Part shown: positions 7,111-48,779 of the stretch, in pieces
Layout of the letters: the number at the start of each line of letters is the position of its first letter
Position numbering within the stretch: the first letter of the stretch is position 1
From: Thiorhodovibrio frisius
Lineage (GTDB): Bacteria > Pseudomonadota > Gammaproteobacteria > Chromatiales > Chromatiaceae
Assembly (NCBI RefSeq): GCF_033954835.1
Contig: NZ_CP121471.1
Span: 4,210,501-4,274,500 of the forward strand
Length of the DNA stretch: 64,000 nt
Direction of reading: 5' to 3'
The notes under the pieces: generated by a model
Database searches by the model: none
Told to the model about the DNA's origin: nothing
Seen by the model: the letters and a program-made list of their open reading frames with translations, nothing else
Translations under genes and position numbers: made by a program

Positions 7111-9450
7111 TCAGGCGGTGTCTCCTGTGCCGTTCGGATCGAGCAGCGCATGCAGGTTATCGCTGTCGGCGGCTCGCTGGCGCAGGCGCTTGGCGTAACT
7201 GGCCTGATTTTTGGTGCAAACCAGAGTATAAGGTCGGCCACGCTTATCTGTCGTCAAGTCCAAATCGCATTGGGCCGTGCGGATTTGGTGGCTGACGTGG
7301 TCGCGGGCCTGTTGCCCGGCCTTCAATCGCCAGGTGGAATCGCTCGGCGATTCGAGGAAGCGGCTCAGCTCCTGGCAATGGGTGCACTGGCACTTGAGCT
7401 TGGCCGGACGGCGCCAGTCGGCGGGTGGCTCGAGCGCTTCGGCAATGCGCTGGCGCAAGAGCGCAATCATGGCGTCCTTGAGTTGCTCAGCCAGAGGAGT
7501 GTTGGCAGCCAGTGGGGCCTCGCCGGTCTGCACTGCGCGCGCGGCTGGGATCAGGATTTGGTCGGGATCATAGGTTTCCGGGTGTGTGAGAAAGCGCTCG
7601 AGTGCCTGTTGCGCGAGCGGATTGACTGATGCCGTGTCAAGTGCCCCGTCGAGGTGCTGGAAAGCCGCCAGGGTCGCGGTAACCAGTTCGGGCGTCATCT
7701 TTTCTGGCGCACCATAGTAGCTCCGGGCAGGGGGCGCGATCGGCAGCCCGTCGAGGAGTACCATGGCCGCGGGCTTTACCGTCTCGCCGGTCAACTCCGG
7801 CTTGCCGGCGAGCACCTTGGCGAGCAGTTCGGCACAGGCACTGGGGTCGCGCTGGGCATTGCCGGTGATCAGGCTGCTCAAAATCGCCCCGGCGTGCTCG
7901 GCGGGCAGTTCATCGAGGATGGCTAGCACTGGTACGTTGTCCTGCGCGCTGTAGCCGCCAGCGGCGGCGACCTTGGCGATGAAATCAACCGTGGTGCGGG
8001 TATCGCCAAGCCGATGCAGGGCGCTTAGAAAGCGCGCGCTCTTGCCATTGCGGCTGGCAAAGTATGCTGAATGGTCGGACGCTGGCCAACCGGCGCAGAT
8101 GGCTTGTGCGAGTTGGCGCGCCTCGGCCAGTATCTCGGCATCGGCCCCCGCGCTAGCATCCGCGTCCCCGATTAGCTCGCTCAGCCGAGGCAGGCTGACA
8201 TCCAGTCCGCCAGCGGCAAGCACGGCACTGCGTTGCCGGCGCGGCCAGAGCACCAGGGCCGCGCACTGGTACTGACGCTCGAAGCTGGCGCCCGCGTTAC
8301 CGGTGGCTTCGTGGAATTCCGCCTCGGCATCGGCGATCTCCTCGAGCATCGAGGGCGGACAAAGCTCGTGATCGGTGAAGGGCAAGGCCCCCATGGCCGA
8401 CGAGCGACCATCCGGTCGGCGCCAACTGTGCAGTTCCTGCACCCGCTCGTCCACCTCGCCGACCTCGAGGTCGTCACCCCAGCGACTGTAGCCCGTGTAT
8501 TCCGCCCAGCCGGTTTCTTGCACACTGAGCATGGCCAGATGCAGATCGCATTCAGAGGCGGCGGCCGCATCCCGCACCACGGCCGCGAGCGTGGCATCGA
8601 TGGCCTTGAGCGCGCGAAAGCCGAGCTCGGCCTCGGTGTAGGCGTACTCCAGGGGTAGCACCAGCTTGCGCGGCCAGTTGGCTTGATCCTGATGGCCGCC
8701 CTGCCCTTCGCCCCGAGCCTGGCCCTGATCGGGCCTTTCGCTCCACAGGCTGAGCAGCCGGGTCAGCTCGGTGCGCGCGCTGTCATGATCCGGTGCTTGG
8801 GGCAGCGGGCCGCCATCCCGGCGGACCAAGTTGTAGATCAACGCCAGCCGGCAGCCGTCGGTGATGGGCAACACCTGATGGCGGCAGTCGGCATAGAAGG
8901 CGGCGTAGGCGATGGCGGCTGGATCATCGCGGCGCAGATCCAGGCGCACTTCGCGGTCTTGGTGCTGCACGATCAGCTCGCCGCCGCTGAACTCAGAGGG
9001 CAAGATCATCACCAGGGTGGCGAACATGCCGGGGCATTTCTCGGTGTCGCGGTGCCGCACAAAAAAGCTGCCGGCATCGTAGATCAGCAGCTTGTAGAGC
9101 TCGGCCTCGACCTGACCGGTAACGCCCAAGCCCTCGGCAATGCACGGGAGCAGGGTGGCGAGATCATCTTGCCAGCGTTGCCCCTCGAGCGACAGCTGGG
9201 CGGCATCGATCTGCCAGGTGCGTCGCACCTCGGTATCGACCAGGGTCTCGCTGCCACGACCATAGGGCGCTTGCTCGGCGACGCCGATCAGTTGTTGCGC
9301 CTGCACCGGCAACAAGGGCAGCGCGATGGTGCCGATACCCTCCACCCGCAGTCGTGGTGGGTGCATGTCGAGCGTGCCGGTGGCATAGAAGTCGCCGGGA
9401 CGGTCGATACGCTCGAGCAGCGCGGCAAGTTGCTCTTGGATGTTTAGCAT
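7111..9450 (-). CDS. Large 2-oxoglutarate/Fe(II) oxygenase-like protein
   Basis: 779 residues. The first about 215 fit a prolyl-4-hydroxylase-type 2OG-Fe(II) dioxygenase: an H-x-D pair (His133, Asp135 in VRHRDTEK), a distal His191 (CRHQVLPI) and Arg201 (CRLALIYN) in the expected place for 2-oxoglutarate binding. The remaining about 560 residues are helical, lack a known domain and end in a Cys/His cluster (CQCTHC near 690) that may bind metal. The substrate is unknown. The gene is monocistronic and convergent with the phosphatase gene, 30 bases away. Confidence 0.75.
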   Translation of the reverse strand: MLNIQEQLAALLERIDRPGDFYATGTLDMHPPRLRVEGIGTIALPLLPVQAQQLIGVAEQAPYGRGSETLVDTEVRRTWQIDAAQLSLEGQRWQDDLATLLPCIAEGLGVTGQVEAELYKLLIYDAGSFFVRHRDTEKCPGMFATLVMILPSEFSGGELIVQHQDREVRLDLRRDDPAAIAYAAFYADCRHQVLPITDGCRLALIYNLVRRDGGPLPQAPDHDSARTELTRLLSLWSERPDQGQARGEGQGGHQDQANWPRKLVLPLEYAYTEAELGFRALKAIDATLAAVVRDAAAASECDLHLAMLSVQETGWAEYTGYSRWGDDLEVGEVDERVQELHSWRRPDGRSSAMGALPFTDHELCPPSMLEEIADAEAEFHEATGNAGASFERQYQCAALVLWPRRQRSAVLAAGGLDVSLPRLSELIGDADASAGADAEILAEARQLAQAICAGWPASDHSAYFASRNGKSARFLSALHRLGDTRTTVDFIAKVAAAGGYSAQDNVPVLAILDELPAEHAGAILSSLITGNAQRDPSACAELLAKVLAGKPELTGETVKPAAMVLLDGLPIAPPARSYYGAPEKMTPELVTATLAAFQHLDGALDTASVNPLAQQALERFLTHPETYDPDQILIPAARAVQTGEAPLAANTPLAEQLKDAMIALLRQRIAEALEPPADWRRPAKLKCQCTHCQELSRFLESPSDSTWRLKAGQQARDHVSHQIRTAQCDLDLTTDKRGRPYTLVCTKNQASYAKRLRQRAADSDNLHALLDPNGTGDTA

Positions 9451-9486
9451 GGCAGGTTTCCAGTGTGTCGTTACAAACGCTGGGCC

Positions 9487-12400
9487 TCACAGCAGGACCC
9501 GTTCGATGCCTCGGGACGCTAAATCCTTGATGAACCCCTGCTGCCAGCCCTCGCCAAGCTGGCGACGGGCGAGCTCGACCACAACGTAGTCCGTGTCAAG
9601 CCCGGTCTGGTCGGTGAACTTGGCCAAGCCCTGCTGGCAGGCGGGGCAGGAGGTCAGCAGTTTTGCCTGGCCATCAGTTGCGCGCGTTTCGCCGGTTAGC
9701 GTTTTCAGCCCAGCCGCCAGTTCCTCGGCCTTGCGCAAGCGCACCTGGTTGGCGATGTCGGGCCTGGCGGTGCCCAGGGTGCCGGCTTCACCGCAGCAGC
9801 GCTCAGAGAGTGCCACCGGCTGGCCCATGAGTTTGCTGGCCACCGAGATGGGCTGGTAGGCCTTCATCGGCGTGTGGCAGGGGTCGTGGTAGAGGTATTG
9901 CGTCCCGTCGGTCGGGGTGAGCGCCACCTTTTGTTCCATCAGATATTCATGGATGTCGAGCAGTCGGCAGCCGGGGAAGATGCGCTCGAACTGGTAGCGC
10001 GTGAGCTGGTCCATGCAGGTGCCGCAGGAGACTAGCACGGTGTGAATGTCGAGATAATTGAGCGTGTGGGCGACGCGGTGGAATAACACCCGGTTTTCCA
10101 TGGTGATGCGCTGACCGCGCTGTTCTAATCCCGCACCGCGTTGTGGATAGCCGCAGCAGAGATAACCCGGTGGCAGAATGACCCGCTCGCCCTGGTGGTA
10201 GAGCATGGCCAGAGTCGCCAGGCCGATGTCCGAGAACAGCCGCTCCGAACCGCAGCCGGGGAAGTAGAACACCGCCTGTTCGTCCTCGCCGTGGGCGCCC
10301 TGGGGATCGCACAGAATAGGGATGCGGGTTTTGTCCTCAAGCTGCAGCACCTCCCGATAACCCTGCTTGGGCAGCTCGACCCGGATCGGCCGGCTGACCA
10401 GTTGCCGCACCTGATCGACTGGTTGCGGCCGACCGGTGGTGGCGCCGGGGGCCATGGTCGGCCCTTTGGTCAGGCCCAGGCGCGCCGCAAACCGATGCGC
10501 CAGGTTGAGACCGGCGAAACCGCCCCGACCCAGCACTCGGCGCAGCAGGCGCACCAGGCGCGGGTCGTGCGCGTTGAGGAACTGCATCGCCGCCCAGGCG
10601 CCGGGGTTGCTGCGCTTCTTGCCGCGCTCGACCAGCATGCGGCGCAGACGCATGGTGAGATCGCCAAAGTCGATATTCACCGGACAGGGCGGCTGGCAGT
10701 GATGGCAGATGGTGCAATGGTCGGCGATGTCGTTCATCTCGGCGAAATGCCGCTGGGACAGCCCGCGACGGGTCTGCTCCTCGTACAAAAAAGCCTCGAT
10801 AATCAGGCCGGTGCCGAGAATCTTGTTGCGCGGCGAGTAGGACAGATTGGCGCGCGGCACATGGGTCATGCACTTGGGCTTGCATTTGCCGCAGCGCAGA
10901 CAGTGTTTGACGTCATCATTCAGCGCGCCGAGCTCAGTCTCTTCCAGAATGATGGCCTCGCGCTCGACCAGCCGCAGCGAGGGGGTGTAGGCCAGCTCCA
11001 GTCCGCTACCGGCAAGCAGCTTGCCGGGATTGAAGCGCCCCTGGGGGTCGACCCGCTCCTTGTACGCGGCAAAGGCGGCGAGCCGTTCGGGCTCCAGATA
11101 GCGCACCTTGGTGAGCCCAATGCCATGCTCGCCGGAGATGACGCCGCCCAAGTCGGACGCCAGCGTCATGATGCGATCGACGATGCGGTCGGCCTCGTGC
11201 AGCATCTCGTAGTCGGCGGAATGCACCGGGATGTTGGTGTGCACATTGCCGTCACCGGCGTGCATGTGCAGGGCAACGAACAGGCGCGCGTCGCGAATCT
11301 TGCGATGAATGCCGGCGAGATGCTCGCGCACCGGTTGCAGTTCCTGCCCGGCGAAGAGTTCATTGAGCCGATTGGCGACCTCCTTGCGATAGCTCTGGCG
11401 CAGATCGCGGCGCAGCAGCATGGCGAGCAGAGTGTCACCGCGATCGTCATCGGCGCGGATCAAGCCGCGTTCCTTCTCGCGCAGCAACTCGAGGTGGTCG
11501 GCGGCCGGTTCGTCGAGTGCGGCGAGTATTTGCTGCCAGCGAGTCCGTGCCTGACTGACAGCCTCCCGCGCCGCCTCGCATTTGGCGGCCACAATGGCCT
11601 GCCCTTCGGCCGAGTCTTCGTGGTCCAGGGGTGCCGCCTGCGGCATGGGGCCGGACAGATACTCCAGCACGGCAGCCAGGATGCGGTCCTTGTTGCCAAT
11701 GGACTGCTCGATATTGATGCGCTCAATGGCGCGACTGTAGTCGGCCAGGCGCCCGAGCGGGATGACCACGTCCTCGTTGATCTTGAAGGCATTGGTATGG
11801 CGCGAGATGGCCGCGGTGCGGGCGCGGTCGAGCCAGAAGCGCCGGCGCGCCTCGGGGCTGGTGGCGATGAAGCTCTCGCCATCGCGCGCGGTGACGCTTT
11901 CGCGCACGGCCGCAGCCGCAGCTCCCAACGCCGCATCGTCATCGGACACCAGGTCGGCGAGCAGCACCATCTTGGGCAGCTCGCGCCGCGCGGCCTTGGT
12001 GGAATAGTTGACCGCACGGATGTAGCGCTCATCCAGATGCTCCAGCCCGGCGATCTGCACCTCAGGCAGGCCATCGATCATGTCCTTGATCTCGACGATG
12101 GCCGGCACCGCGCGCTCGAGATCGGCGCCGAAGAACTCCAGGCACAGCGTCAGGGTATGCGCTGGCATGCGATGCAGGATGAAGCGTGCGGAGGTGATAA
12201 TGCCGTCGCAGCCCTCCTTCTGGACCCCGGGCAGGTTGCTCAGCGCCTTGTCGGTCACATCCTTGCCAAGACCGGCCTTGCGGAAGCTGCCGCCCGGCAC
12301 ATCAATCAGCTCCGGCTCGCCAATAGGCGTCTGGCCATCGGTGGCAAAACGCTGGATACGAAAGCGCACCCGTTCGGCGTCCTGGAGCTTGCCGAGGTTA

Positions 12401-36477: not shown

Positions 36478-38013
36478 TCAGGCCGTTGCCTGGGCCGACT
36501 CGCTGCTTTGCTCGTCGCTCTCCTTGCCGGTCAGGATGATTGCGTTCGACACTAACTGGTGAATACCCACGATCTGATCCATGTCCATGCCGTAGTAGGG
36601 CAGCACCTTGGTGAACTGAGTCTTGCAGATGGCGCAGATCGCGGCCATGTGGGTCACGGCCTTTTCCTGGATAACATGGTTCAGCGCCTCAATGCGCGGC
36701 TGCGCACCCTTGACGCGCACCTCCATCAGGTCGTCGGTCAGCAGACCACCGCCGCCGCCGCAGCAGAAGGTCCGATCACGGATGGTCTCTTCATCCATGT
36801 CGTAATAATGGTTGCAGACCTCGCGGATGATGGCGCGCGGAATATCGAACTGCCCGCCCGGTTTATCCCCCATGCGCGAGGCGCGCGCGACATTGCAGGA
36901 ATCGTGATAGGTCAGCACCTTGTCGTCGTTCTGCGACTTGTCGAACTTGAGCTTGCCTTGCTGGATAAGATCGTAGGTGAACTCGCAGATGTGCTGCGGG
37001 ATCGGATAACGCTGATCGAGAAAATCCCAGGGGCCGGCCAGCGTGTTCAAAAAGCTATAGGCCACACGCCAGGCATGGCCGCACTCGCCAAAGACGATGC
37101 GCTTGACACCAAGCTTAATGGCTGCCTCACGAATGCGCAGCGCCACTCGGCGCATGTTGTCGTAGGAGCCGATGAACATGCCGAAATTGGCGGCTTCAGA
37201 GGCATAAGTACTCATCGTCCAGCTCACACCGGCCTCGTGGAATACTTTGCCATAGCCAATTAAGCCATCGACATGGGGCTCAGCAAAGAAATCGGCCGAG
37301 GGGGTGACCAACAGAATCTCGGCACCCTCCTGGTCAACCGGGAATTTGACTTCAACCCCGGTATCGTCAAAAACGTCTTCCTCGAGTCCTTCAAGGGTGT
37401 CAATCAGCGCTGGGCCAGGCAGACCCAAGTTGTTGCCGATCTTGTAGACCTTGCCAATGATCTCGTTGCAGTACTTCTGCCCAACACCGATGTGATCCAT
37501 GATCTCGCGCGCTGCCATGGATATTTCTGCCGTATCAATGCCGTAGGGACAGAACACTGAACAGCGACGGCACTGAGAACATTGGTGGAAATAGTTGTAC
37601 CAGTCCCCGAGCACGTCCTCGGTCAGCTCAGTCGCGCCGACCAGATCCGGGAAAAACCGCCCGGCAAGGGTGAAATACCGCCGATAGACCTTTCGCAACA
37701 GATCCTGACGACCAACTGGCATGTTTTTGGGATCATGAGTGCCCAGGTAATAGTGGCACTTGTCGGTGCAGGCGCCGCACTTGACGCAAGAATCCAGGTA
37801 AACACGCAGCGATCGATAGCGTCCAAGCAGATCGCCCATCTTGTCGATGGCCTTTTTCTGCCAGTCCTCCACCAGTTCGCCGGGAAAACCCAGCGCATCC
37901 TGAAATTCCGGCTTGGACTTAAAGGTCTTGGAGTGCGCCATGACGCCCGGTTCAATCTCCGGGATTTCTGCGTACTCCTTGAGCTCGGGGACCTGAAAAT
38001 TTGCCTTAGCCAT
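36478..38013 (-). CDS. dsrK: DsrK, HdrD-like catalytic Fe-S subunit
   Basis: 511 residues. Two 4Fe-4S motifs (CVKCGACTDKC; CSQCRRCSVFC) are followed by the CCG-type residues that bind the noncubane cluster: GECGHAW, HDSCN, CCGGGGG and CAICKTQF. It is a cytoplasmic subunit of DsrMKJOP, homologous to heterodisulfide reductase HdrD, and acts on the DsrC disulfide or trisulfide. It is the usual length. Confidence 0.95.
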   Translation of the reverse strand: MAKANFQVPELKEYAEIPEIEPGVMAHSKTFKSKPEFQDALGFPGELVEDWQKKAIDKMGDLLGRYRSLRVYLDSCVKCGACTDKCHYYLGTHDPKNMPVGRQDLLRKVYRRYFTLAGRFFPDLVGATELTEDVLGDWYNYFHQCSQCRRCSVFCPYGIDTAEISMAAREIMDHIGVGQKYCNEIIGKVYKIGNNLGLPGPALIDTLEGLEEDVFDDTGVEVKFPVDQEGAEILLVTPSADFFAEPHVDGLIGYGKVFHEAGVSWTMSTYASEAANFGMFIGSYDNMRRVALRIREAAIKLGVKRIVFGECGHAWRVAYSFLNTLAGPWDFLDQRYPIPQHICEFTYDLIQQGKLKFDKSQNDDKVLTYHDSCNVARASRMGDKPGGQFDIPRAIIREVCNHYYDMDEETIRDRTFCCGGGGGLLTDDLMEVRVKGAQPRIEALNHVIQEKAVTHMAAICAICKTQFTKVLPYYGMDMDQIVGIHQLVSNAIILTGKESDEQSSESAQATA

Positions 38014-38117
38014 GTATCAACCCCATTTCTCAAACTCGGAATCCGGCGGCCTTGATCATTGCCTCATACTGCCAGCATGCGTGGGTGCCTAATTGCACTG
38101 CCGGGATGGCGCTGCCT

Positions 38118-38142
38118 GGGATTGCAATGGCGGGATTGCAAT
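38118..38142. repeat. Direct repeat in the dsrM-dsrK gap
   Basis: GGGATTGCAAT occurs at 38118-38128 and again at 38132-38142. It is a short local duplication in a 143-base gap without a gene. Confidence 0.6.
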
Positions 38143-38156
38143 CCTGATCACGCTCA

Positions 38157-38888
38157 TTACTCTTGCTCGAGCCGTTTCGCCCAAGGCGCAATATGGCGTT
38201 GCTCGCGCGGGTTATCGACCTGATTGCGCGTTGGGCTGAAAAACAGTCCTGGCGCATGGAGCAGTTTGCTGTAAGGGAAAATAATCATCAGCAGCGCGAC
38301 TAGCAACAGGTGCAGCAGCAGGACTGGATCGGCCGGCAGAACAAACACTTCAAACTGGTACAGGCCAGCAAAGAATTCTTTCACTCGGATGATATCGGTG
38401 TGCACCACAAAGCGCATCATTAGACCCGTCAGGCCAATGGCGATCAGCAGTCCCAGAATCAGGTGATCGGAGCGCGATGAAATGTAGCGCACCCGGTCAA
38501 CGAAAAAGCGTCGCGTCCAGAGCCCAGCAAGTCCGACGATCATGGCCATGCCACCATAAATGCCAAAGGGCTGAATCATCTGAATGGGCACAGGCACCGG
38601 GTCGATGAAATAGCGCAAATGGCGCAAGGTCACCAACAGCAGCCCAAAGTGAAACATCCAACTGAAGATCCAGGTCCATTTATTACCGCGAAACAGGCTC
38701 TCGAACAGCACCACTTCGCGCGTCATGCGCAGCGCCACACCGACGCGGGTGGTCGGAGCAGGCGTGGTCGGGATCTTCAGCGGCGCCGGCGTGCGCGCAT
38801 ATTGCAGAATCTTGAACGCCACACCGCCAAGCAACACCAGTGTCGCAAAGTAGAACAAATAGGCGTAGATATCCGAGATAAAGGACAT
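38157..38888 (-). CDS. dsrM: DsrM, NarI-like heme b membrane subunit
   Basis: 243 residues with five hydrophobic segments and the histidines of a NarI/HdrE-type diheme cytochrome b (FHFGLLLVTLRHLRY; LLHLLL). It is the quinone-interacting membrane partner of DsrK. Its ribosome-binding sequence (TGAGG) lies inside a 13-bp tandem duplication just upstream. Confidence 0.93.
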   Translation of the reverse strand: MSFISDIYAYLFYFATLVLLGGVAFKILQYARTPAPLKIPTTPAPTTRVGVALRMTREVVLFESLFRGNKWTWIFSWMFHFGLLLVTLRHLRYFIDPVPVPIQMIQPFGIYGGMAMIVGLAGLWTRRFFVDRVRYISSRSDHLILGLLIAIGLTGLMMRFVVHTDIIRVKEFFAGLYQFEVFVLPADPVLLLHLLLVALLMIIFPYSKLLHAPGLFFSPTRNQVDNPREQRHIAPWAKRLEQE

Positions 38889-38898
38889 AATCGCGCGA

Positions 38899-38924
38899 CC
38901 TCAGTCTTCAGCCTCAGTCTTCAG
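38899..38924. repeat. 13-bp tandem duplication before dsrM
   Basis: CCTCAGTCTTCAG occurs twice in a row. On the minus strand each unit carries TGAGG, so the dsrM ribosome-binding sequence is duplicated. Confidence 0.75.
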
Positions 38925-38931
38925 TCGTAAC

Positions 38932-38957
38932 GCTGCGGCGGTTCATCGAGCCGCAGC
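38932..38957 (-). promoter_or_regulatory. Hairpin downstream of dsrC
   Basis: GCTGCGGC and GCCGCAGC form a perfect 8-bp stem 87-112 bases after the dsrC stop. A second inverted repeat, GCTCTCCGG (38961-38969) with CCGGAGAGC (39020-39028), lies between it and dsrC. Such structures could stabilise the dsrC message or partly terminate transcription, giving more DsrC than downstream products. Confidence 0.5.
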
Positions 38958-39043
38958 ACGGCTCTCCGGCCCGGAGACGCTCACACCCAGTAAACCAAGG
39001 GGATGCGAACGCCCGATATCCGGAGAGCGCGCAGTTGCGCCGG

Positions 39044-39376
39044 TCAGACGCAGCCGGTTGGCTTAGGCAGACCCGCGTAACGGCAAGCCTGCTTGGCTGG
39101 GCCATACGGGAAGAGACCATACAGATACTTGCTGTTGCCCTTGTCCTTGCCCATCTTTTTGCCGACGGCCTTGGTCAGAACGCGCACGGCCGGAGCAATC
39201 TGGTATTCCTCGTAGTACTCACGCAGGAAGTTAATAATGTCCCAGTGCTCGTCGGTCAGTTCCAAGTCGTCCTCCTTGGACATGACTTCGGCAACGCCGG
39301 CCTCCCAGTCGTTGATATTGGCCAGATAGCCTTCTTCGTCAGTCTCAAAGCTCTTGCCATTGACTTCGATCGGCAT
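39044..39376 (-). CDS. dsrC: DsrC, sulfur-carrier protein with two C-terminal cysteines
   Basis: 110 residues ending CRYAGLPKPTGCV. The penultimate Cys109 and Cys98, eleven residues earlier, are the redox pair of true DsrC; both are present. DsrC receives sulfur from DsrEFH and carries it as persulfide or trisulfide to DsrAB, and DsrMKJOP handles the released form. A cysteine-free paralogue lies at 45832-46170. Confidence 0.97.
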   Translation of the reverse strand: MPIEVNGKSFETDEEGYLANINDWEAGVAEVMSKEDDLELTDEHWDIINFLREYYEEYQIAPAVRVLTKAVGKKMGKDKGNSKYLYGLFPYGPAKQACRYAGLPKPTGCV

Positions 39377-39424: not shown

Positions 39425-39733
39425 TTACAACCAGGCCTGGACGGCATCGGCTTGCGCGGCGAGATCCACAAAGCCGCCGTAGTCCACGACGCTGATTCCA
39501 TTAATCAGGCGATCCTCGTCAAAGCCACGGGCTTTGAGATCCTCGCCCAGCACATACACTTTAACCGATGTGAGCGCGCGCTCGACAGTCTCGGCTGCGG
39601 CGGTACCTTTAAGCGCGCCATAAATGCCATCTTCAAACAGCAGCACGGCGGCACCCTCGCTAACATGCGCCAGACAGGACTCCAGCGAGGACTTCTCGAA
39701 GGGCGACTTGTTGACGGTGTGAAGCTTACTCAT
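39425..39733 (-). CDS. dsrH: DsrH, TusB-like sulfur-relay subunit
   Basis: 102 residues of the TusB/DsrH family. Cys20 (SSLESCLAH) matches the conserved active-type cysteine of DsrH. It forms a DsrE2F2H2 hexamer with its neighbours that mobilises sulfur towards DsrC. It lies 11 bases after dsrF. Confidence 0.95.
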   Translation of the reverse strand: MSKLHTVNKSPFEKSSLESCLAHVSEGAAVLLFEDGIYGALKGTAAAETVERALTSVKVYVLGEDLKARGFDEDRLINGISVVDYGGFVDLAAQADAVQAWL

Positions 39734-39744
39734 GCGGGGCTCCC

Positions 39745-40155
39745 TTAAAAGCTGAAGACAACGTCGGACTCATCCATCAGCGCGGCCATTTCGGCACGCG
39801 AGACGAGCGCGATGGAGTCTTTCTCGGCATAGTCCTCGTCCTCGTCCTCCCAGACTAGGTGCTGCAGGTCGTCAAGCGACAGGCCGCGCTCTTCGAGGGA
39901 TTCTTTCTCGACAAAGATCTTTTTTACGTCATAGTCTCCAAGGGCGGCGTAAGTCGGCGAGAAATTCTTCATGCCGATGCCGGCGGTCTCTTGGCCCTTG
40001 GTGAGCTGGTAAACACCATCGTCAACAAAGGCGAGGCTGACATCCTGGTCGAAAGCCGCGCCGATCAGGACGACCTCAAGCGACTCCCACGCATAAATGG
40101 TGCCGTAGGGCGCCTTGCGGTTGAGATACAGAAATTTTTTGACTGTTGCAGACAT
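39745..40155 (-). CDS. dsrF: DsrF, TusC-like sulfur-relay subunit
   Basis: 136 residues of the TusC/DsrF family (LEVVLIGAAFDQDVSLAFVDDGVYQL). It contains no cysteine, so it is likely a structural member of the DsrEFH hexamer. It is flanked by dsrE (46 bases) and dsrH (11 bases). Confidence 0.95.
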   Translation of the reverse strand: MSATVKKFLYLNRKAPYGTIYAWESLEVVLIGAAFDQDVSLAFVDDGVYQLTKGQETAGIGMKNFSPTYAALGDYDVKKIFVEKESLEERGLSLDDLQHLVWEDEDEDYAEKDSIALVSRAEMAALMDESDVVFSF

Positions 40156-40201
40156 ATTTTCGTGCTCCTATGGCTGGGCGCGGCTGCTAACTGGCACGGC
40201 C

Positions 40202-40594
40202 TCAGTCGCCGAAAACGACCAGACGTTCGGCCTGAATTGCCGCCTCGACCAACTGCCCCAGACCGGAAATGCGGAAGCGCGGGTGAATATTGGTCGCATC
40301 CTTGCCGTTACGCTTCGCCTCACCCTCATCCACCATGCCACGGCGCTGGGCTGCGGCTACGCACACCACCATGTCGAGATCGTGCTGCTCGGCCAGCGCG
40401 GCCCAGCGCTCGACGACATTGCGGTCATCTTGCGGCGGTGTGGTCAGCCGACTCGCGTTATCGACGCCGTCGTGATAGAAGAACACACGAAAAACCTCAT
40501 GCCCCTTATCGAGCGCCGCCTTGGTAAAAAAGTACGCGGAGTCCGACGCTTGGTGCTGGTAGGGTCCTTCGTTGATCTGAATGGCAAACTTCAT
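40202..40594 (-). CDS. dsrE: DsrE, TusD-like sulfurtransferase subunit
   Basis: 130 residues of the TusD/DsrE family. Cys78 (LDMVVCVAAAQRRG) is exactly at the position of the essential sulfur-binding cysteine reported for A. vinosum DsrE. It is the sulfur-accepting subunit of DsrEFH and donates to DsrC. A 148-base gap with short repeat E3 separates it from dsrB. Confidence 0.96.
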   Translation of the reverse strand: MKFAIQINEGPYQHQASDSAYFFTKAALDKGHEVFRVFFYHDGVDNASRLTTPPQDDRNVVERWAALAEQHDLDMVVCVAAAQRRGMVDEGEAKRNGKDATNIHPRFRISGLGQLVEAAIQAERLVVFGD

Positions 40595-40742: not shown

Positions 40743-41819
40743 TCAGAAGCGGATGTAGGACGATGAGTTAAAGCTGGCTCGCGCACCGCGCCAGGTATCG
40801 ATGTGATACTTGGTGAAGGGCAACTCGACTTCCTCGAAGAAGCGCGGCCAACCAATGCGCTCGATCCACTCGTTCACCCGCTCCCAGTCACGCGCACCTT
40901 CTTTATAAGCCTTAAGAATTTGCTTGACGATAGCGGTGGCCTCGGGCCAGCGCGGCGGATTATTGGGGATACCGGCTGCGACCAGCTTTTGGAAAGTCGG
41001 CTTGCCGCGTGCGTTGGAGTGATTACCGCCCACCCAGATCGCCAGCTTGGAGTGCTCGGCGTCGTTAATCTGCATCGGCGGACAGGGCGGATAGCAGGCA
41101 CCGCAGCAAATGCACTTGCGCTCGTCGACTTCGAGCGAGGGCTTGCCATTGACAATGGCCGGACGGATAGCTGCGACCGGGCAGCGCGCTACAACCGATG
41201 GCCGCTCGCACACATTAGCCACCAGATCGTGGTTGATTTTGGGCGGCTTGGTGTGTTGGATATTGATGGCGATATCGCCCTGGCCACCGCAGTTGATCTG
41301 GCAGCAAGAGGTGGTGATATGCACCCGGTTGGGCATGGTGGCGTTGCGGAACTCATCAATGAGTTCATCCATCATCGACTTGACCACGCCCGAGGCATCG
41401 GTGCCGGGAATGTCGCAGTGCAGCCAACCCTGGGTGTGGGAGATCATGGCGACCGAGTTTTGGGTACCGCCCACCACAAAGCCAGCATCTTCGAGCGCAC
41501 TGATCAGCGGCTGAACTCTGGCCTCTTCGGTCACCATGTACTCAATGTTAGAGCGCAGGGTGAAATGCACAAAGCCGTCAGCAAACTCATCGCCAATGTC
41601 ACACAACTTACGCAGCGTGAAAACATCCAGAATGCGCTGGGTGCCGGCCTTCACCGTCCATATTTCGTCGCCACTGTAGGCCACATGGCGCAGCACGCCG
41701 GGACGGGGATGCTCGTGGTACTTCCACTGGCCAAAGTTTTTACGCATCGTCGGATGCATGTACTGCCAGGGATCGGGACAGCCGGATTCAATCGGCTCAC
41801 GCATATCTTTTGCAGCCAT
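40743..41819 (-). CDS. dsrB: DsrB, reverse-type dissimilatory sulfite reductase beta subunit
   Basis: 358 residues. Siroheme-[4Fe-4S] ligands are present: Cys135, then the CC pair at 172-173 and Cys177 (TTSCCQINCGG), the spacing typical of DsrB. A ferredoxin insert follows (CICCGACYPPC). With DsrA it forms the cytoplasmic alpha2-beta2 enzyme that oxidises DsrC-bound sulfur to sulfite. It lies 107 bases after dsrA. Confidence 0.97.
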   Translation of the reverse strand: MAAKDMREPIESGCPDPWQYMHPTMRKNFGQWKYHEHPRPGVLRHVAYSGDEIWTVKAGTQRILDVFTLRKLCDIGDEFADGFVHFTLRSNIEYMVTEEARVQPLISALEDAGFVVGGTQNSVAMISHTQGWLHCDIPGTDASGVVKSMMDELIDEFRNATMPNRVHITTSCCQINCGGQGDIAINIQHTKPPKINHDLVANVCERPSVVARCPVAAIRPAIVNGKPSLEVDERKCICCGACYPPCPPMQINDAEHSKLAIWVGGNHSNARGKPTFQKLVAAGIPNNPPRWPEATAIVKQILKAYKEGARDWERVNEWIERIGWPRFFEEVELPFTKYHIDTWRGARASFNSSSYIRF

Positions 41820-41926: not shown

Positions 41927-43186
41927 TTAACCGGCCGCGCGTTGCTCGGACTGACGCTCGAACCACTGCTCCGCAGCCTCATCCCAGCCATCCAGTCGGA
42001 TGTAGGAACTCTGACGCGGATGTGCGAGCATGTTCGGGTCGGCCTCAATGCCGATGCCGTCGAGGAAGTTCGCCAAGCCGATACGCTCGATCATCTCACC
42101 GCAGCGCTCGTGCTCTAGACCGTTCTCCGCCCAGAAGTCGATGATGGTCTCGGCGAGCTCGACCATGCTCTCGTAGTCTTCCTCGGTCTCAAGCTTCTTG
42201 AAGGGAACCAGCACGGTCCCCATCAGATCGCCGATTTTGAGCGTGCGCTTACCGCCGATCAGGATGGTCACGCCCTTGTCGTCACCGGGGTGCAACGCCT
42301 TGGGCATGACATTCAGGCAGTGCATGCAGCGCACGCAGTCGCGGTTGTTGACTTCGATCGAATCGTCGTCGTTCAGCGACAGGGCATTGGTCGGACAACG
42401 GGTGATGACGTTATCAATGATGTACTGGCGGCCCTTGGTCTTGACGTACTTCTTGATCTCGTCCTGATCGACCTTCATATCGTCGCGCCAGGTGCCAAGA
42501 ACCGCGAAGTCGGAGCGCTCGATGGCGTTCTGGCAGTCGTTAGGGCAACCAGAGACCTTAAACTTAAATTTATACGGCAAGGCCGGGCGATGGACATCGT
42601 CGGTGAAGTTATTGACCAGCATGCGATGAGACTTCAGCTCATTGGTGCAGGACATTTCGCAGCGCGCCGAGCCGACGCAGGACATCGCGGTACGCACGCA
42701 GGGGCCAGCACCACCGAGGTCCCAGCCATAGTCGTTGACTTCGTCGAAAAAGTGCTGGGTCGCCGGCGTATCGGCACCGATAAACATGATGTTACCGGTC
42801 TGACCATGGAAGGTCACAAGGCCAGAGCCATGCTTTTCCCAGCTGTCGGCAAGCTGGCGCAGCATCTTGGTGCTGTAATGGTTACCTGCCGGCGGCTGCA
42901 CCCGCAGGGTATGGAATTCCTTGGACTTCGGGAAGGCAGCACCCACTTCAGAGAAGCGCGGGATAATGCCACCGCCGTAGCCAAAGACAGACACGGTGCC
43001 ACCTTTCCAGTAACCCTTGCGAGTTTCGTAAGAGTGCTCAAGCTGCCCGAGCAAGTCATTGGTCATCGAGTTGATGCGCTCTTCCGGGTGTTCGTCGCGC
43101 AGCCGCTTGATGCCAGAAATAAAGCTCGGCCAGGGCCCGGTCTCGAGCTGGTCGAGCATCGGGGTGTGGTGCTTCTCGATTGCCAT
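41927..43186 (-). CDS. dsrA: DsrA, reverse-type dissimilatory sulfite reductase alpha subunit
   Basis: 419 residues. Siroheme-cluster motifs C-x5-C (Cys170, Cys176 in SCVGSARC) and C-x3-C (Cys214, Cys218 in SGCPNDCQ) are intact, and a ferredoxin domain carries Cys264, 284, 287 and 290. It is first in the operon. A strong promoter match lies at 43467-43495, leaving a leader of about 270 bases. The type (oxidative) is inferred from the operon, which includes dsrEFH and dsrL. Confidence 0.97.
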   Translation of the reverse strand: MAIEKHHTPMLDQLETGPWPSFISGIKRLRDEHPEERINSMTNDLLGQLEHSYETRKGYWKGGTVSVFGYGGGIIPRFSEVGAAFPKSKEFHTLRVQPPAGNHYSTKMLRQLADSWEKHGSGLVTFHGQTGNIMFIGADTPATQHFFDEVNDYGWDLGGAGPCVRTAMSCVGSARCEMSCTNELKSHRMLVNNFTDDVHRPALPYKFKFKVSGCPNDCQNAIERSDFAVLGTWRDDMKVDQDEIKKYVKTKGRQYIIDNVITRCPTNALSLNDDDSIEVNNRDCVRCMHCLNVMPKALHPGDDKGVTILIGGKRTLKIGDLMGTVLVPFKKLETEEDYESMVELAETIIDFWAENGLEHERCGEMIERIGLANFLDGIGIEADPNMLAHPRQSSYIRLDGWDEAAEQWFERQSEQRAAG

Positions 43187-43379: not shown

Positions 43380-43466
43380 ACCTATCCCTTTGGAGATAGT
43401 TGACAGAAAAGATTTTCCCCAGAGATTCAGACATCTAGGACTGTCAGCCGAAAACCTGAGACGGAA

Positions 43467-43757: not shown

Positions 43758-43949
43758 ATGTTGAAACTCAGCGAAATTCTCGTCGCCAATCAGGAGCTGG
43801 AAAGCTTCGATGACCTGCTCCCCATCATTCAGGCCATTGCCCGCGACGGCGAGCGTTTTTTCCGGATGGACGTCAAACCGCCCTTTCCCGACACCCCGGA
43901 GAATTGGGAAGACCGGCTCGAAGCCACCTTCAGCGGCCTGGTGCGCTAA
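43758..43949 (+). CDS. 63-residue hypothetical protein upstream of dsr
   Basis: Reads MLKLSEILVANQELESF from the ATG at 43758, followed by an acidic segment and a C terminus rich in Pro/Asp (PPFPDTPENWEDRLE). It is soluble and has no cysteine or known motif. The longer frame from 43542 adds 72 residues of low coding quality, so the short start is chosen. It is the first of four plus-strand genes that diverge from dsrA. Function unknown. Confidence 0.6.
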   Translation: MLKLSEILVANQELESFDDLLPIIQAIARDGERFFRMDVKPPFPDTPENWEDRLEATFSGLVR

Positions 43950-44031: not shown

Positions 44032-44775
44032 ATGGATTTTCACGACATCACCCGGTCGCACTTGGCCGATACCGCCGCCGACTCCGTGCGTCCCCGCTCG
44101 GCCGAGGAAGCCGCACTCGAAAGCCACCTGAGCACCCTGCAGGAACAATACCGCGACCTCGAGCGCGCCAAAGCCAAAACCGGCGCCAGCGTCCATGCGA
44201 GTCACGAACAAGGCGCCGAACTCCAACTTCAAATCGCGCGCACCCTGGTCAGCCTTGAACGCGGAGCAGAAGCCTGGCCCATGGCGCGCGAGGCGCTCGA
44301 CAGCCTGATCAGGGCACGAGATTTCGAATCCGCCGCCGATTGCTGTGATGTGCTCTTCCGCGCCGAACAGCCGCAGTCGCTCTCGGCGCTCGGCCAGGGC
44401 ATCTGGCTGGCTGTCACCTACCCAATCGATCCCGAGCTATCCATGGAACTGCTGAGCCATGTGATCGAAGACACCCCGGACGACGCCGACGGCGCGGCGG
44501 TAGCGGCCACCACGGCGCTTTTTCTTGCCGATGTGCGTGCTCAGGGTAGCCAGCGCGATAACCTGATGTTCTTCGCCTCCCAGCAACTCGGGGAAGTTGC
44601 ACGCCGTCACAGCCAAATTGACAATCAAGACGCCTTCGACGCTTGGCGCGACCGCCTGGAATTGCGCGAGCCGGAGAAATTTCTGGTCCGACTGCGCAAT
44701 ATCGTCGATGTGCTTGTGCAGGACGACTGGTGGTTCGACCGCGAGGCGTTGCAATCCGAACTGCCACTAAATTAA
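44032..44775 (+). CDS. Helical hypothetical protein in the dsr-adjacent cluster
   Basis: 247 residues from the ATG at 44032 (MDFHDITRSHL). It is mostly alpha-helical, with TPR-like pairs in the middle (ELQLQIARTLVSLERG, then LDSLIRARDFESAADCC), and has no signal peptide. It lies 82 bases after the 63-residue gene. I do not recognise the family. The longer open frame upstream overlaps the preceding gene and is not used. A truncated copy of the large palindromic repeat follows. Confidence 0.65.
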   Translation: MDFHDITRSHLADTAADSVRPRSAEEAALESHLSTLQEQYRDLERAKAKTGASVHASHEQGAELQLQIARTLVSLERGAEAWPMAREALDSLIRARDFESAADCCDVLFRAEQPQSLSALGQGIWLAVTYPIDPELSMELLSHVIEDTPDDADGAAVAATTALFLADVRAQGSQRDNLMFFASQQLGEVARRHSQIDNQDAFDAWRDRLELREPEKFLVRLRNIVDVLVQDDWWFDREALQSELPLN

Positions 44776-44930: not shown

Positions 44931-45629
44931 ATGACCCAAAACTTTTGGCAGGAAGACACTCACGAACAAGCACCATCCACCCACGATGAAGTGGTCGACC
45001 TGCTTTTTTCCCTGAAATGCCGCGCGCTGCCGGTCGATCACGCCGAGGCACTGGCGCAAGCCCTGCTTGGCGCCGCGCCATGGATCAGCGAAGAGCCCTG
45101 CTGCGGCATCCACAGCATTCATGTCGCCGGCTCGCAGAACGGCTGGCAGCGACCTGACGCCGATGCCGGTCAGCCGCTGATCCTGTCGCGCCGCACCAAA
45201 CTTGGCGTCCGGGTGCCCAAACATCGCGTTCCTGAGTTGCGCGCAGCGCTTGAGCATCGGGATTTCGACATCGCCGGCCATGCGCTGCATCTTGAGGCTG
45301 CCAAGGAACGCCTGCTGAGCCGCGAGACCACCATCTTCTCGCGCCATGTCTGCTGCGAAGGGGACAACAACGAGAGCGAATTTCTCGACTGGGCGGCCGC
45401 AGCCCTGGCCAAACTGGATATCAAAATCCGCAAAGCCCTGTGCGGCAAATCGGTCAAACTGCGTACCTCGGCCGGCTGGCTAGCGACCCGCAGCCTGATG
45501 CTGGCCGATCTCAGCCTGGAAGAATCCCTGCGCTTGCAGCAACATGGCATCGGCCCACACCGCGAGCTTGGCTGCGGGTTGTTCATCCCGCACAAGGGCA
45601 TAGAGGCTGCTGGACCGACCAAGGGCTGA
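44931..45629 (+). CDS. Stand-alone Cas6/Cmx6-like protein
   Basis: 232 residues from the ATG at 44931. The pattern follows the MYXAN-type Cas6 (Cmx6) family: VDLLFSLKCRALPVDHAEAL at the start (with the family DHA), IHSIHVAG, LSRRTKLGVRVP, a mid LHLEAAKERLL, and the C-terminal glycine-rich LQQHGIGPHRELGCGLFIP. Cas6 proteins bind and cut CRISPR repeat RNA. No CRISPR array or other cas gene is in the window. It lies between the dsr side genes and the DsrC paralogue, on the same strand. The link to sulfur metabolism is from position only. Confidence 0.8.
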   Translation: MTQNFWQEDTHEQAPSTHDEVVDLLFSLKCRALPVDHAEALAQALLGAAPWISEEPCCGIHSIHVAGSQNGWQRPDADAGQPLILSRRTKLGVRVPKHRVPELRAALEHRDFDIAGHALHLEAAKERLLSRETTIFSRHVCCEGDNNESEFLDWAAAALAKLDIKIRKALCGKSVKLRTSAGWLATRSLMLADLSLEESLRLQQHGIGPHRELGCGLFIPHKGIEAAGPTKG

Positions 45630-45831: not shown

Positions 45832-46170
45832 ATGGCGATCGAGGTCAATGGCACTAGTATCGAGACAACCGACAGCGGTTTTCTGGTCAATTACACCGAC
45901 TGGAACGAAGATGTCGCGCGCAAGCTTGCCGAGATCGAAGGCATTGAGCTGACCGAGCAGCACTGGGACATCATCAACCATCTGCGCGACGAATACATCA
46001 ACAACAACCAAAACCAGCCGATGGAACGCGCGCTGCTGAAAGACATGGGCAAGAAATGGGGCTCCAAACCCAGCAGCAAGGACGTCTACAAGCTCTTCCC
46101 CCTCGCCCCCACCAAACAGGGCACCAAGATCGCGGGCCTGCCTGCGGTCATGCGCAAAGGCGGCTACTGA
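45832..46170 (+). CDS. DsrC/TusE-family protein without cysteines (RspA type)
   Basis: 112 residues, aligned to DsrC over its whole length (EQHWDIINHLRDEY, then KDVYKLFPLAPTKQGTKIAGLP), but it ends AVMRKGGY. Neither of the two DsrC cysteines is present, nor any other cysteine. Cysteine-free members of this family have been termed RspA and are thought to be regulatory. It starts after an AT-rich upstream stretch and follows the Cas6-like gene by 202 bases. Confidence 0.85.
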   Translation: MAIEVNGTSIETTDSGFLVNYTDWNEDVARKLAEIEGIELTEQHWDIINHLRDEYINNNQNQPMERALLKDMGKKWGSKPSSKDVYKLFPLAPTKQGTKIAGLPAVMRKGGY

Positions 46171-47133: not shown

Positions 47134-48681
47134 TCAGTCGAGACGCTCGAACTCAAAGTCCTGGATTTGCCGCTGCTGTTCACTAAAGGCGATACCGATT
47201 AGGAAAATCGGCTGCCCGAGCGCGCGGTATTTGTCGGCATAGCCTTTGTCCTTGATCTGTTGCAGCGCACTGCCAGTAGGAGAGCGCTCGGCGACCTTAA
47301 ACTCGAACAGCCAGATTTGGTGGTTGAACTTGAGCGTCAGGTCGATGCGCCCGTGGTGGGTAATGTCTTCGGCGATCAGCTCCAAGCCAAGCGCGGCCAG
47401 ATGGCTGTAGAAGACGCTGGCCCAGTAGCCTTCGTAATGGGCAATGGGCGTGTTGTCATGCCAATGATGCGGGATAGCAGCGAACAGGCTGTGCAGATGC
47501 TCGCGCAGCGGTTCGGGGTCGCCAGCCTGGAGGATGTCGTAGAGCTGCCCGGACAGTCGGCTGGCCTGACTGGCGTTGCCCATCAATGCCTTGGCCAGCA
47601 CGTCATTCAGGGCGCTTTGGACTTCCAGGTTGGGAAAGGTCAAGCGGTAGCGCGCGCGGGCGCCGATGCGTTGCACCTCAGCGAAGGTGAGATAACCAGT
47701 CTGCCACAGCAGGGCTTCGGTGGCGATATGATCGACATCGAAGCTCGATAGCAGTTCATCGTCGGCGATGGTCTGGGATAGATCGGGGGTGAAAATTCCG
47801 CGCTGCATCAGCAGGTCAATCAGCCCGGTGGGTGAGCCGGTCTCGAACCAGAACGAACGCAGCTCGCGTTTCTGGAACAGCAGCAGCAGGTCGAAGGGGT
47901 TGTAGACTGCATCGCCCAGCCAGTTGTAGCCGTTGTACCACTGGCGAATCTCGGCGCGATCCAAATCGCGTAGCTCGGGCGCAAAGACGGTGTCCAGATC
48001 GGTCTCGGTATAGCCGCACAGCGCCGAATAAGGTGCATCAACGGTGATGTCGTTTAAATTATTCAGCCCCGAGAACAGACTCACCCGGCTGAACTTGCTC
48101 ACTCCGGTGATGAAGACAAAGCGCACGTCGGCTTCGCGGTCCTTGATCACGGAGTAGAGATTGCGCAGCCCGTCGCGCAGCTCGCGCGCCAGCTCAGGGC
48201 GGGTCAGGTTGTCGAGGATGGGCTTGTCGTATTCGTCCACCAGCACCACGGCGCGCTGGCCGCTCTTTTGGCGCGCAAGGCCAATCAGTTCGGCGAGACA
48301 GGCTTCCGGCTCTGGCTCGGTGCATTCGACATCCAGCCGGGCCATGTTCAGACGCAACTGCTCGCCAATCTTGGTATCGAGCCGCGCGCGAGAGCGCACC
48401 ACCCCGCCGCCGAAGCTCAAGCGGATAACCGGGTAACGCACCGACCAGTCCCAGTCGGGATGAATCGCCAGCCCGCGAAACAGCGGCTCGTTACCGGCAA
48501 ACAGCTCGCCGATGGTGTCGATCAGCAGAGATTTGCCGAAGCGGCGCGGACGGGAGAGAAAGTAAAAGCTGCCCTCGTCGATCAACCGGGCGATGAAGCC
48601 GGTTTTATCGACGTAGTAATAATCCTCCTCGCGCATCTTGGCGAAGGTCTGTATGCCAATGGGCAGTTTGCGGCGGGGCAT
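47134..48681 (-). CDS. AAA-ATPase-like protein with PD-(D/E)XK nuclease-like C terminus, copy 2
   Basis: 515 residues from the ATG at 48681; two more codons from a GTG are possible. Family block YYYVDKTGFIARLI and P-loop LSRPRRFGKSLLI are at the start, then VLVDEYDKPIL and FITGVSKFSRVS. The C terminus (HHGRIDLTLKFNHQIWLFEFKV) has the D-x(n)-E-x-K core of a PD-(D/E)XK fold. It is a diverged paralogue of 19069-20847, as the two differ in length and in most linker positions. Confidence 0.85.
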   Translation of the reverse strand: MPRRKLPIGIQTFAKMREEDYYYVDKTGFIARLIDEGSFYFLSRPRRFGKSLLIDTIGELFAGNEPLFRGLAIHPDWDWSVRYPVIRLSFGGGVVRSRARLDTKIGEQLRLNMARLDVECTEPEPEACLAELIGLARQKSGQRAVVLVDEYDKPILDNLTRPELARELRDGLRNLYSVIKDREADVRFVFITGVSKFSRVSLFSGLNNLNDITVDAPYSALCGYTETDLDTVFAPELRDLDRAEIRQWYNGYNWLGDAVYNPFDLLLLFQKRELRSFWFETGSPTGLIDLLMQRGIFTPDLSQTIADDELLSSFDVDHIATEALLWQTGYLTFAEVQRIGARARYRLTFPNLEVQSALNDVLAKALMGNASQASRLSGQLYDILQAGDPEPLREHLHSLFAAIPHHWHDNTPIAHYEGYWASVFYSHLAALGLELIAEDITHHGRIDLTLKFNHQIWLFEFKVAERSPTGSALQQIKDKGYADKYRALGQPIFLIGIAFSEQQRQIQDFEFERLD

Positions 48682-48779
48682 GATCACGACCCTGGGGACG
48701 CTGTTGATAGAATACGATCATCAAACAACAGTGCGAGAAAGTCGAATCTGTTCCCAGATAGAGGGGAAGGAGGCAAAGG

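Follow-up and report, generated by a model that had tools for sequence, protein, structure and literature searches.

A Cas6 subfamily linked to the dsr sulfur oxidation genes, and not to CRISPR, in Gammaproteobacteria

A subfamily of Cas6 that is independent of CRISPR is a near-universal neighbour of the dsr genes in the Gammaproteobacteria checked. The member studied here is encoded in a stretch of 64,000 nucleotides of the Thiorhodovibrio frisius genome (the whole of which is termed the window), between the divergent dsr operon and a gene for a DsrC homologue (Table 1). Comparative genomics makes it very highly probable that this domesticated subfamily is a core accessory of the reverse-dissimilatory-sulfite-reductase (dsr) region in Gammaproteobacteria. 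The fuller explanation, in which such a CRISPR-independent accessory would still act on host RNA in the manner of Cas6, has about an even chance of being right. Cas6 is usually treated as a hallmark of CRISPR, and among the Gammaproteobacteria with dsr-based sulfur oxidation are purple sulfur bacteria as well as symbionts of animals. A protein of a CRISPR family was, it seems, recruited long ago into sulfur metabolism.

Both independence from CRISPR and dedication to dsr are strongly supported, since co-occurrence, the divergent neighbourhood, a separate clade, purifying selection, retention in genomes of about 1 Mb and carriers without detectable Cas1 all point the same way.

Table 1. The dsr operon and the genes facing it in the window
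Feature	Coordinates	Strand	Product or nature	Basis
dsrM + dsrK	36478..38888	-		
dsrC	39044..39376	-	true DsrC, ends TGCV	
dsrE, dsrF, dsrH	39425..40594	-		
dsrB	40743..41819	-		
dsrA	41927..43186	-	first gene of divergent dsr operon	
Palindrome CTATCCC-NNNN-GGGATAG	43382..43399	.	between divergent dsrA and u1	k-mer enrichment
u1	43758..43949	+	63-aa conserved acidic protein	alignment, 14 invariant columns
u2	44032..44775	+	247-aa all-helical solenoid (TPR/SNAP-like), predicted	alignment, AlphaFold model
dsr-linked Cas6-like gene	44931..45629	+	232 aa	PF09559, TIGR02807, AlphaFold + Foldseek, 46-row alignment
RspA-type DsrC/TusE homologue	45832..46170	+	ends RKGGY, not TGCV	PF04358, TIGR03342

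Identity, fold and conserved residues

The Cas6-like reading frame is open throughout, and its product matches the Pfam Cas6 family PF09559 with 211 bits (cut-off 26.7) and the NCBIfam model TIGR02807, 'type I-MYXAN Cas6/Cmx6', with 118.5 bits, above the curated cut-off of 98.85. The motifs DHAEAL, LSRRTKLGVRVP and ELGCGLFIP are all present, and with these matches the MYXAN-type pattern that the initial annotation had read from the letters is borne out. An AlphaFold model built from 46 orthologues has a pLDDT of 88.5, and the top Foldseek matches to it are all Cas6 (8fcj at E 1e-16 and TM 0.72/0.77, then Cas6 and Cas6e), so that model and structure search, with E down to 1e-16, place the protein in the double ferredoxin-like RAMP fold of Cas6. 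By sequence model, predicted fold, the histidine of helix 1 and the glycine-rich loop it is a genuine member of the Cas6/Cmx6 family.

The general-base histidine of Cas6 enzymes sits at the N-terminus of helix 1. Going by the model and by the CRISPR-linked members, the corresponding position would be His37, and a catalytic role for it is suggested by analogy with known Cas6 enzymes. All 68 dsr-linked proteins have His37, and so do all eight CRISPR-linked Cmx6 proteins that cover the site; Arg94 is equally constant (68/68 and 9/9). In the C-terminal loop, G206, G208, G214 and G216 are nearly invariant and common to both groups. Peculiar to the dsr clade are three invariant residues, R88, E148 and G172, and two nearly invariant ones, W6 and K168.

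The charge is another matter. The pI of the product is 6.5, which is not that of a basic RNA-binding protein, and the median is 6.3 in the 68 dsr-linked proteins as against 9.5 in nine CRISPR-linked Cmx6 proteins. Judged from their sequences, the dsr-linked proteins would thus have retained the catalytic residues and lost the strong positive charge of CRISPR Cmx6. With this combination, cutting of one defined RNA, RNA binding without cutting, and protein binding are all possible.

Linkage to dsr across genomes

The location of the gene among dsr and DsrC-family genes, which had also been noticed at the outset, is as described: dsrA starts at 43186 and is read leftwards, away from the Cas6-like gene, and an RspA-type gene adjoins on the other side. 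The same layout recurs in relatives, with dsrK-M-C-H-F-E-B-A on one strand and u1-u2-Cas6-like-RspA divergent from dsrA. The 55 relatives searched include 34 of the same family, 32 of which matched TIGR02807. Among 369 Gammaproteobacteria (in the GTDB sense, with betaproteobacteria counted in), the subfamily profile matches 118 genomes and a strong dsrA is present in 119. Both occur together in 111, the Cas6-like gene only in seven, dsrA only in eight and neither in 243 (Fisher p 7e-75, kinship between genomes not being corrected for). Where both are on one contig they are divergent and within 6 kb of each other in 82 of 84 genomes. The proposed survey of the neighbourhood in sulfur oxidisers has come out in favour of a conserved association, with RspA also downstream in most loci (below).

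The mismatches are mostly due to contig breaks or incomplete genomes. In six of the seven genomes with the Cas6-like gene only, the contig ends on the dsrA side (one has a dsrA fragment at its edge), and the seventh, 91% complete, belongs to a family whose members do not have the two genes linked. A contig end lies within about 2 kb of the 5′ side of dsrA in seven of the eight genomes with dsrA only, one of which keeps u1; the eighth, G243, has a better dsrA copy for which a contig end is no explanation. In a phylum-wide sample the Cas6-like gene adjoins dsr in four of four dsrA-positive Gammaproteobacteria, and the subfamily was found in none of 47 dsrA-positive Pseudomonadota of other classes. 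Reading of 92 distinct loci gave a divergent dsrA within 5.5 kb in 43 of the 53 that could be judged.

Distances between Cas6-like proteins correlate with those between DsrA proteins (Mantel r 0.64, above all 2000 permutations). The gene, with a dN/dS of about 0.1–0.25, is under purifying selection, and it is retained together with TauD-like, u1 and RspA neighbours in genomes of 1.0–1.1 Mb (L140, L158, L160, L161, L167). It is an old, vertically inherited host gene. A mobile origin was considered and rejected, as phage and plasmid collections hold no dsr-linked relative; their single plasmid match is a CRISPR Cmx6.

Independence from CRISPR

The initial annotation had seen neither a repeat-spacer array nor another cas gene in the window, and the searches agree: no array and no Cas1 match were found there, and the genome's only matches to the Cas6 family PF10040 lie outside it. 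Neither in the window nor in the sampled dsr loci are cas3, cas8a1/cmx8, cas7, cas5 or a CRISPR array beside the gene. As to INDEPENDENCE from CRISPR, 41 of the 80 carriers with a completeness of 90% or more gave no Cas1 match. These 41 include nine single-contig genomes (G052, G067, G077, G113, G115, G142, G165, G343 and G627), and with Cas1 undetected in so many carriers the gene is not tied to CRISPR adaptation genes.

A genome-wide look for CRISPR had been suggested as a check, and its outcome has two sides. Arrays, looked for around cas1 loci, do exist in the genome, far from the window, with I-C-like, I-E-like, type III-like or RT-Cas1 loci (the type names of L092 and L095 being read from gene sizes and repeats). 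These loci have a PF10040 Cas6 of their own, a Cas6-RT-Cas1 fusion, or an I-C-like or I-E-like layout, and those with neither of these genes belong to types that process otherwise. [One of them, L094, has at 9378-12020 a gene for an 880-aa protein with a Cas1 match and a Cas6-like N-terminal match, putatively of the Cas6-RT-Cas1 type.]

One branch of a 76-protein tree (support 99/93) separates the dsr-linked from the CRISPR-linked Cmx6 proteins. A genome of the same genus has two TIGR02807 copies, a dsr-linked one of 110 bits and a CRISPR-type one of 195 bits (L056), and the latter falls on the CRISPR side of the tree. [In that genome, G002, the CRISPR-type Cmx6 gene is at 8763-9380 of L056, about 46 kb from the dsr-linked copy, with cas1 some 8 kb further on.]

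The dsr-facing cassette

The Cas6-like gene belongs to an operon-like cassette that faces dsr, (TauD-like)-u1-(u2)-Cas6-like-RspA. The first of its small partners, u1, has no match in Pfam, NCBIfam or PDB, and accompanies the Cas6-like gene in 72 of 85 loci. It constitutes a new family of gammaproteobacterial and alphaproteobacterial oxidative dsr loci, usually adjoins the TauD-like oxygenase gene, and is also present in four alphaproteobacterial dsr loci (L162, L164, L165, L166).

The product of u2, present in 50 of 85 loci, is modelled with 11 helices at a pLDDT of 92, and Foldseek gives weak matches, mostly to helical-repeat proteins of TPR and SNAP-like kinds; to judge from the model, it is likely a scaffold. 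A weak Pfam hint (E 0.01, in 2 of 30) that it might be a Cse2/Cas11 small subunit was not upheld, since the structure search yields helical repeats instead.

Directly downstream of the Cas6-like gene in 65 of 85 loci is the gene for a protein of the DsrC family that lacks the C-terminal cysteines, presumably the RspA of the DsrC literature.

The TauD-like gene (2-oxoglutarate oxygenase family) is absent from the cassette in the window and precedes u1 in many relatives. Lying between dsrA and u1, it is seen at 8407-9321 of L061, 6154-7083 of L016 and 12192-13151 of L162. Where u1 is lacking (L070, L141, L155-L157), the gene before the Cas6-like one encodes a DUF6967 protein. This small protein is dsr-linked (L070 10170-10397, L141 9432-9833, L155-L157 and L165 5981-6196) and in alphaproteobacteria its gene adjoins u1 and a cysG-like gene. 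Several alphaproteobacterial dsr loci have u1 and the TauD-like gene with DUF6967 and without the Cas6-like gene. Downstream of the cassette in the window, at 47134-48687, an AAA-ATPase-like/PDDEXK_9 gene is beside nikR and a run of cobalamin biosynthesis genes.

Search for an RNA target

The initial annotation had proposed that a Cas6-fold protein was reused on a non-CRISPR RNA. Its first part, reuse outside CRISPR and in association with dsr, stands on the co-occurrence, neighbourhood, clade and Cas1-less carriers described above; the RNA target was not found. Folding of the intergenic regions of 59 dsr loci showed only the gap between dsrC and dsrM to be often unusually structured; the dsrA leader, the u1 leader and the gap between the Cas6-like gene and rspA are not. 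The dsrC-dsrM hairpin is equally frequent in alphaproteobacterial dsr loci without the Cas6-like protein, and for that reason was rejected as its specific target. [Strong hairpins of varied sequence occur at this position, 38889-39043 in the window, in both gammaproteobacteria and alphaproteobacteria, perhaps as a transcript end or a stabiliser that sets the level of dsrC apart.] No RNA element confined to loci with the Cas6-like gene emerged from scans of the intergenic regions of dsr and the cassette, and an Rfam search of the window gave nothing.

The palindrome between dsrA and u1, with arms of 7 bp and a loop of 4 nt, resembles a Cas6 hairpin. It is the sole intergenic copy in the genome. 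Most gammaproteobacterial dsr loci with the Cas6-like gene have the palindrome, the alphaproteobacterial dsr loci do not, and the betaproteobacterial L155-L157 have the gene and lack the palindrome. In 38 sites, deviations from the stem are symmetric, with nine G-U and nine A-C cells; compensatory changes are almost absent, pairing being fully preserved in just one substitution, a C-G/A-T exchange at a site of low score; and the palindrome keeps a near-fixed distance to promoter-like elements. On these three grounds the idea that the leader of dsr forms an RNA hairpin of the Cas6 type was rejected, and a DNA operator is the likelier identity; the sequence comparison suggests that it is probably the operator of the divergent dsrA and u1 promoters.

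Proposed role and alternatives

Binding or cutting of RNA is, from the residues that sequence comparison shows to be retained, the most likely role of the Cas6-like protein, which would serve Dsr-based sulfur oxidation. The chances are about even that it would be a single-site RNA binder, or metal-independent endoribonuclease, specific for sequence and structure. His37 and the C-terminal glycine-rich loop would act on one host RNA tied either to the expression of dsr or to sulfur relay. The protein would be held or steered by u2, as a helical scaffold, and by the small, acidic u1, and sulfur oxidation would be adjusted after transcription. What counts against an RNA role is the loss of basic charge, the lack of an RNA target in the searches and the families of the neighbours, which are not those of RNA enzymes. 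A bolder form, to be entertained only tentatively, is that Gammaproteobacteria recruited a CRISPR Cas6 before most sulfur-oxidising lineages split, as a dedicated endoribonuclease for an RNA-processing step of the rDsr pathway that would be essential and free of CRISPR.

The main rival to an RNA role is one in which only proteins are involved. The Cas6 fold would be reused as a binding or maturation factor of the Dsr system, in complex with u1, u2 and RspA. Loss of the positive charge, the nature of the partners (a helical solenoid, a small acidic protein and a DsrC homologue), the failure to find an RNA element, and the presence of u1 and the TauD-like gene with dsr even where the Cas6-like gene is missing are what such a factor might predict. 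However, the residues with a part in the RNA chemistry of Cas6 (His37, Arg94, the glycine-rich loop) are conserved no less strictly than in the CRISPR enzymes, and a pure scaffold need not retain them; the protein-only role is possible but doubtful. Another alternative has the Cas6-like protein present a tRNA or other sulfur-relay RNA, with RspA and, in many genomes, the TauD-like oxygenase taking part in its modification or in the control of that modification. While the kinship of RspA to TusE/DsrC, its place downstream in 65 of 85 loci and the TauD-like gene of many related cassettes accord with this, the missing reactive cysteines of RspA, the cassette of the window without a TauD-like gene and the absence of any tRNA gene from the window make it unlikely.

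Two other proposals fare worse. That the protein, alone or with u1 or u2, binds the CTATCCC-N4-GGGATAG operator and so controls the divergent promoters would suit the unique position of the palindrome between the two operons and its distribution among gammaproteobacterial and alphaproteobacterial loci. It is quite improbable, however: family searches of u1, u2 and the Cas6-like protein turn up no DNA-binding domain, duplex DNA is not a known ligand of the Cas6 fold, and the betaproteobacterial loci L155-L157 have the gene without the palindrome. Least probable of all, and very much so, is processing of crRNA in trans for arrays elsewhere in the genome, though such arrays and cas1 loci do exist and TIGR02807 is a CRISPR equivalog model. 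As a main role it was rejected on the carriers without detectable Cas1, half of the near-complete ones with single-contig genomes among them, and on the near 1:1 tie to dsrA; in addition the same-genus genome has its separate CRISPR-type Cmx6 and the CRISPR loci of T. frisius carry other Cas6 genes or the Cas6-RT-Cas1 fusion.

Implications

No description of a dsr-linked Cas6 was found in the open-access literature in connection with dsr, RspA, A. vinosum, or solo or domesticated Cas6, most subscription journals being outside the scope of that search. Databases label the gene 'CRISPR-associated', but it is a vertically inherited partner of the main gammaproteobacterial pathway of sulfur oxidation. 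As TIGR02807 names the dsr-linked proteins 'type I-MYXAN CRISPR-associated', annotation-based counts of CRISPR in sulfur oxidisers are inflated, and calls of CRISPR presence that rely on Cas6 are unsafe in these gammaproteobacterial genomes. If the protein does act on RNA, core metabolism would have acquired a CRISPR enzyme, potentially a missing dsr regulator. Even without an RNA role, u1, u2, the Cas6-like gene and RspA are added as candidate dsr accessory genes.

Relation to known systems

The nearest known relatives are the type I-MYXAN Cas6/Cmx6 proteins, as in the cyanobacterial plasmid loci L173-L180, with which the dsr-linked protein shares family, fold, the His37 column, Arg94 and the glycine-rich C-terminal loop. 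Most true type I-MYXAN members are adjoined by cas3, cas8a1/cmx8, cas7 and cas5 and an array; the dsr-linked gene, unlike them, lacks such neighbours and forms a separate clade, and its proteins are acidic to neutral and not basic. They also have invariants of their own (R88, E148, G172 and an N-terminal W), and all but the betaproteobacterial branch show an inserted NGW motif.

Among solved structures the best match is Cas6 of the type I-B CAST Cascade (PDB 8fcj chain B; profile E 4e-23, TM 0.72/0.77), which is part of a Cascade-transposon complex and, in the sequence alignment, shows Asn where the dsr-linked protein has His37. The likeness to RspA-type DsrC homologues, of the DsrC/TusE fold family, is that of the neighbouring gene and not of the Cas6-like gene itself. 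Non-defence use of CRISPR components is known from CreTA modules and ectopic CRISPR repeats (PMC9458426). Those depend on Cascade and repeat-like RNAs, whereas the dsr-linked Cas6-like gene neither requires a repeat, Cascade or Cas1 nor is linked to any of them.
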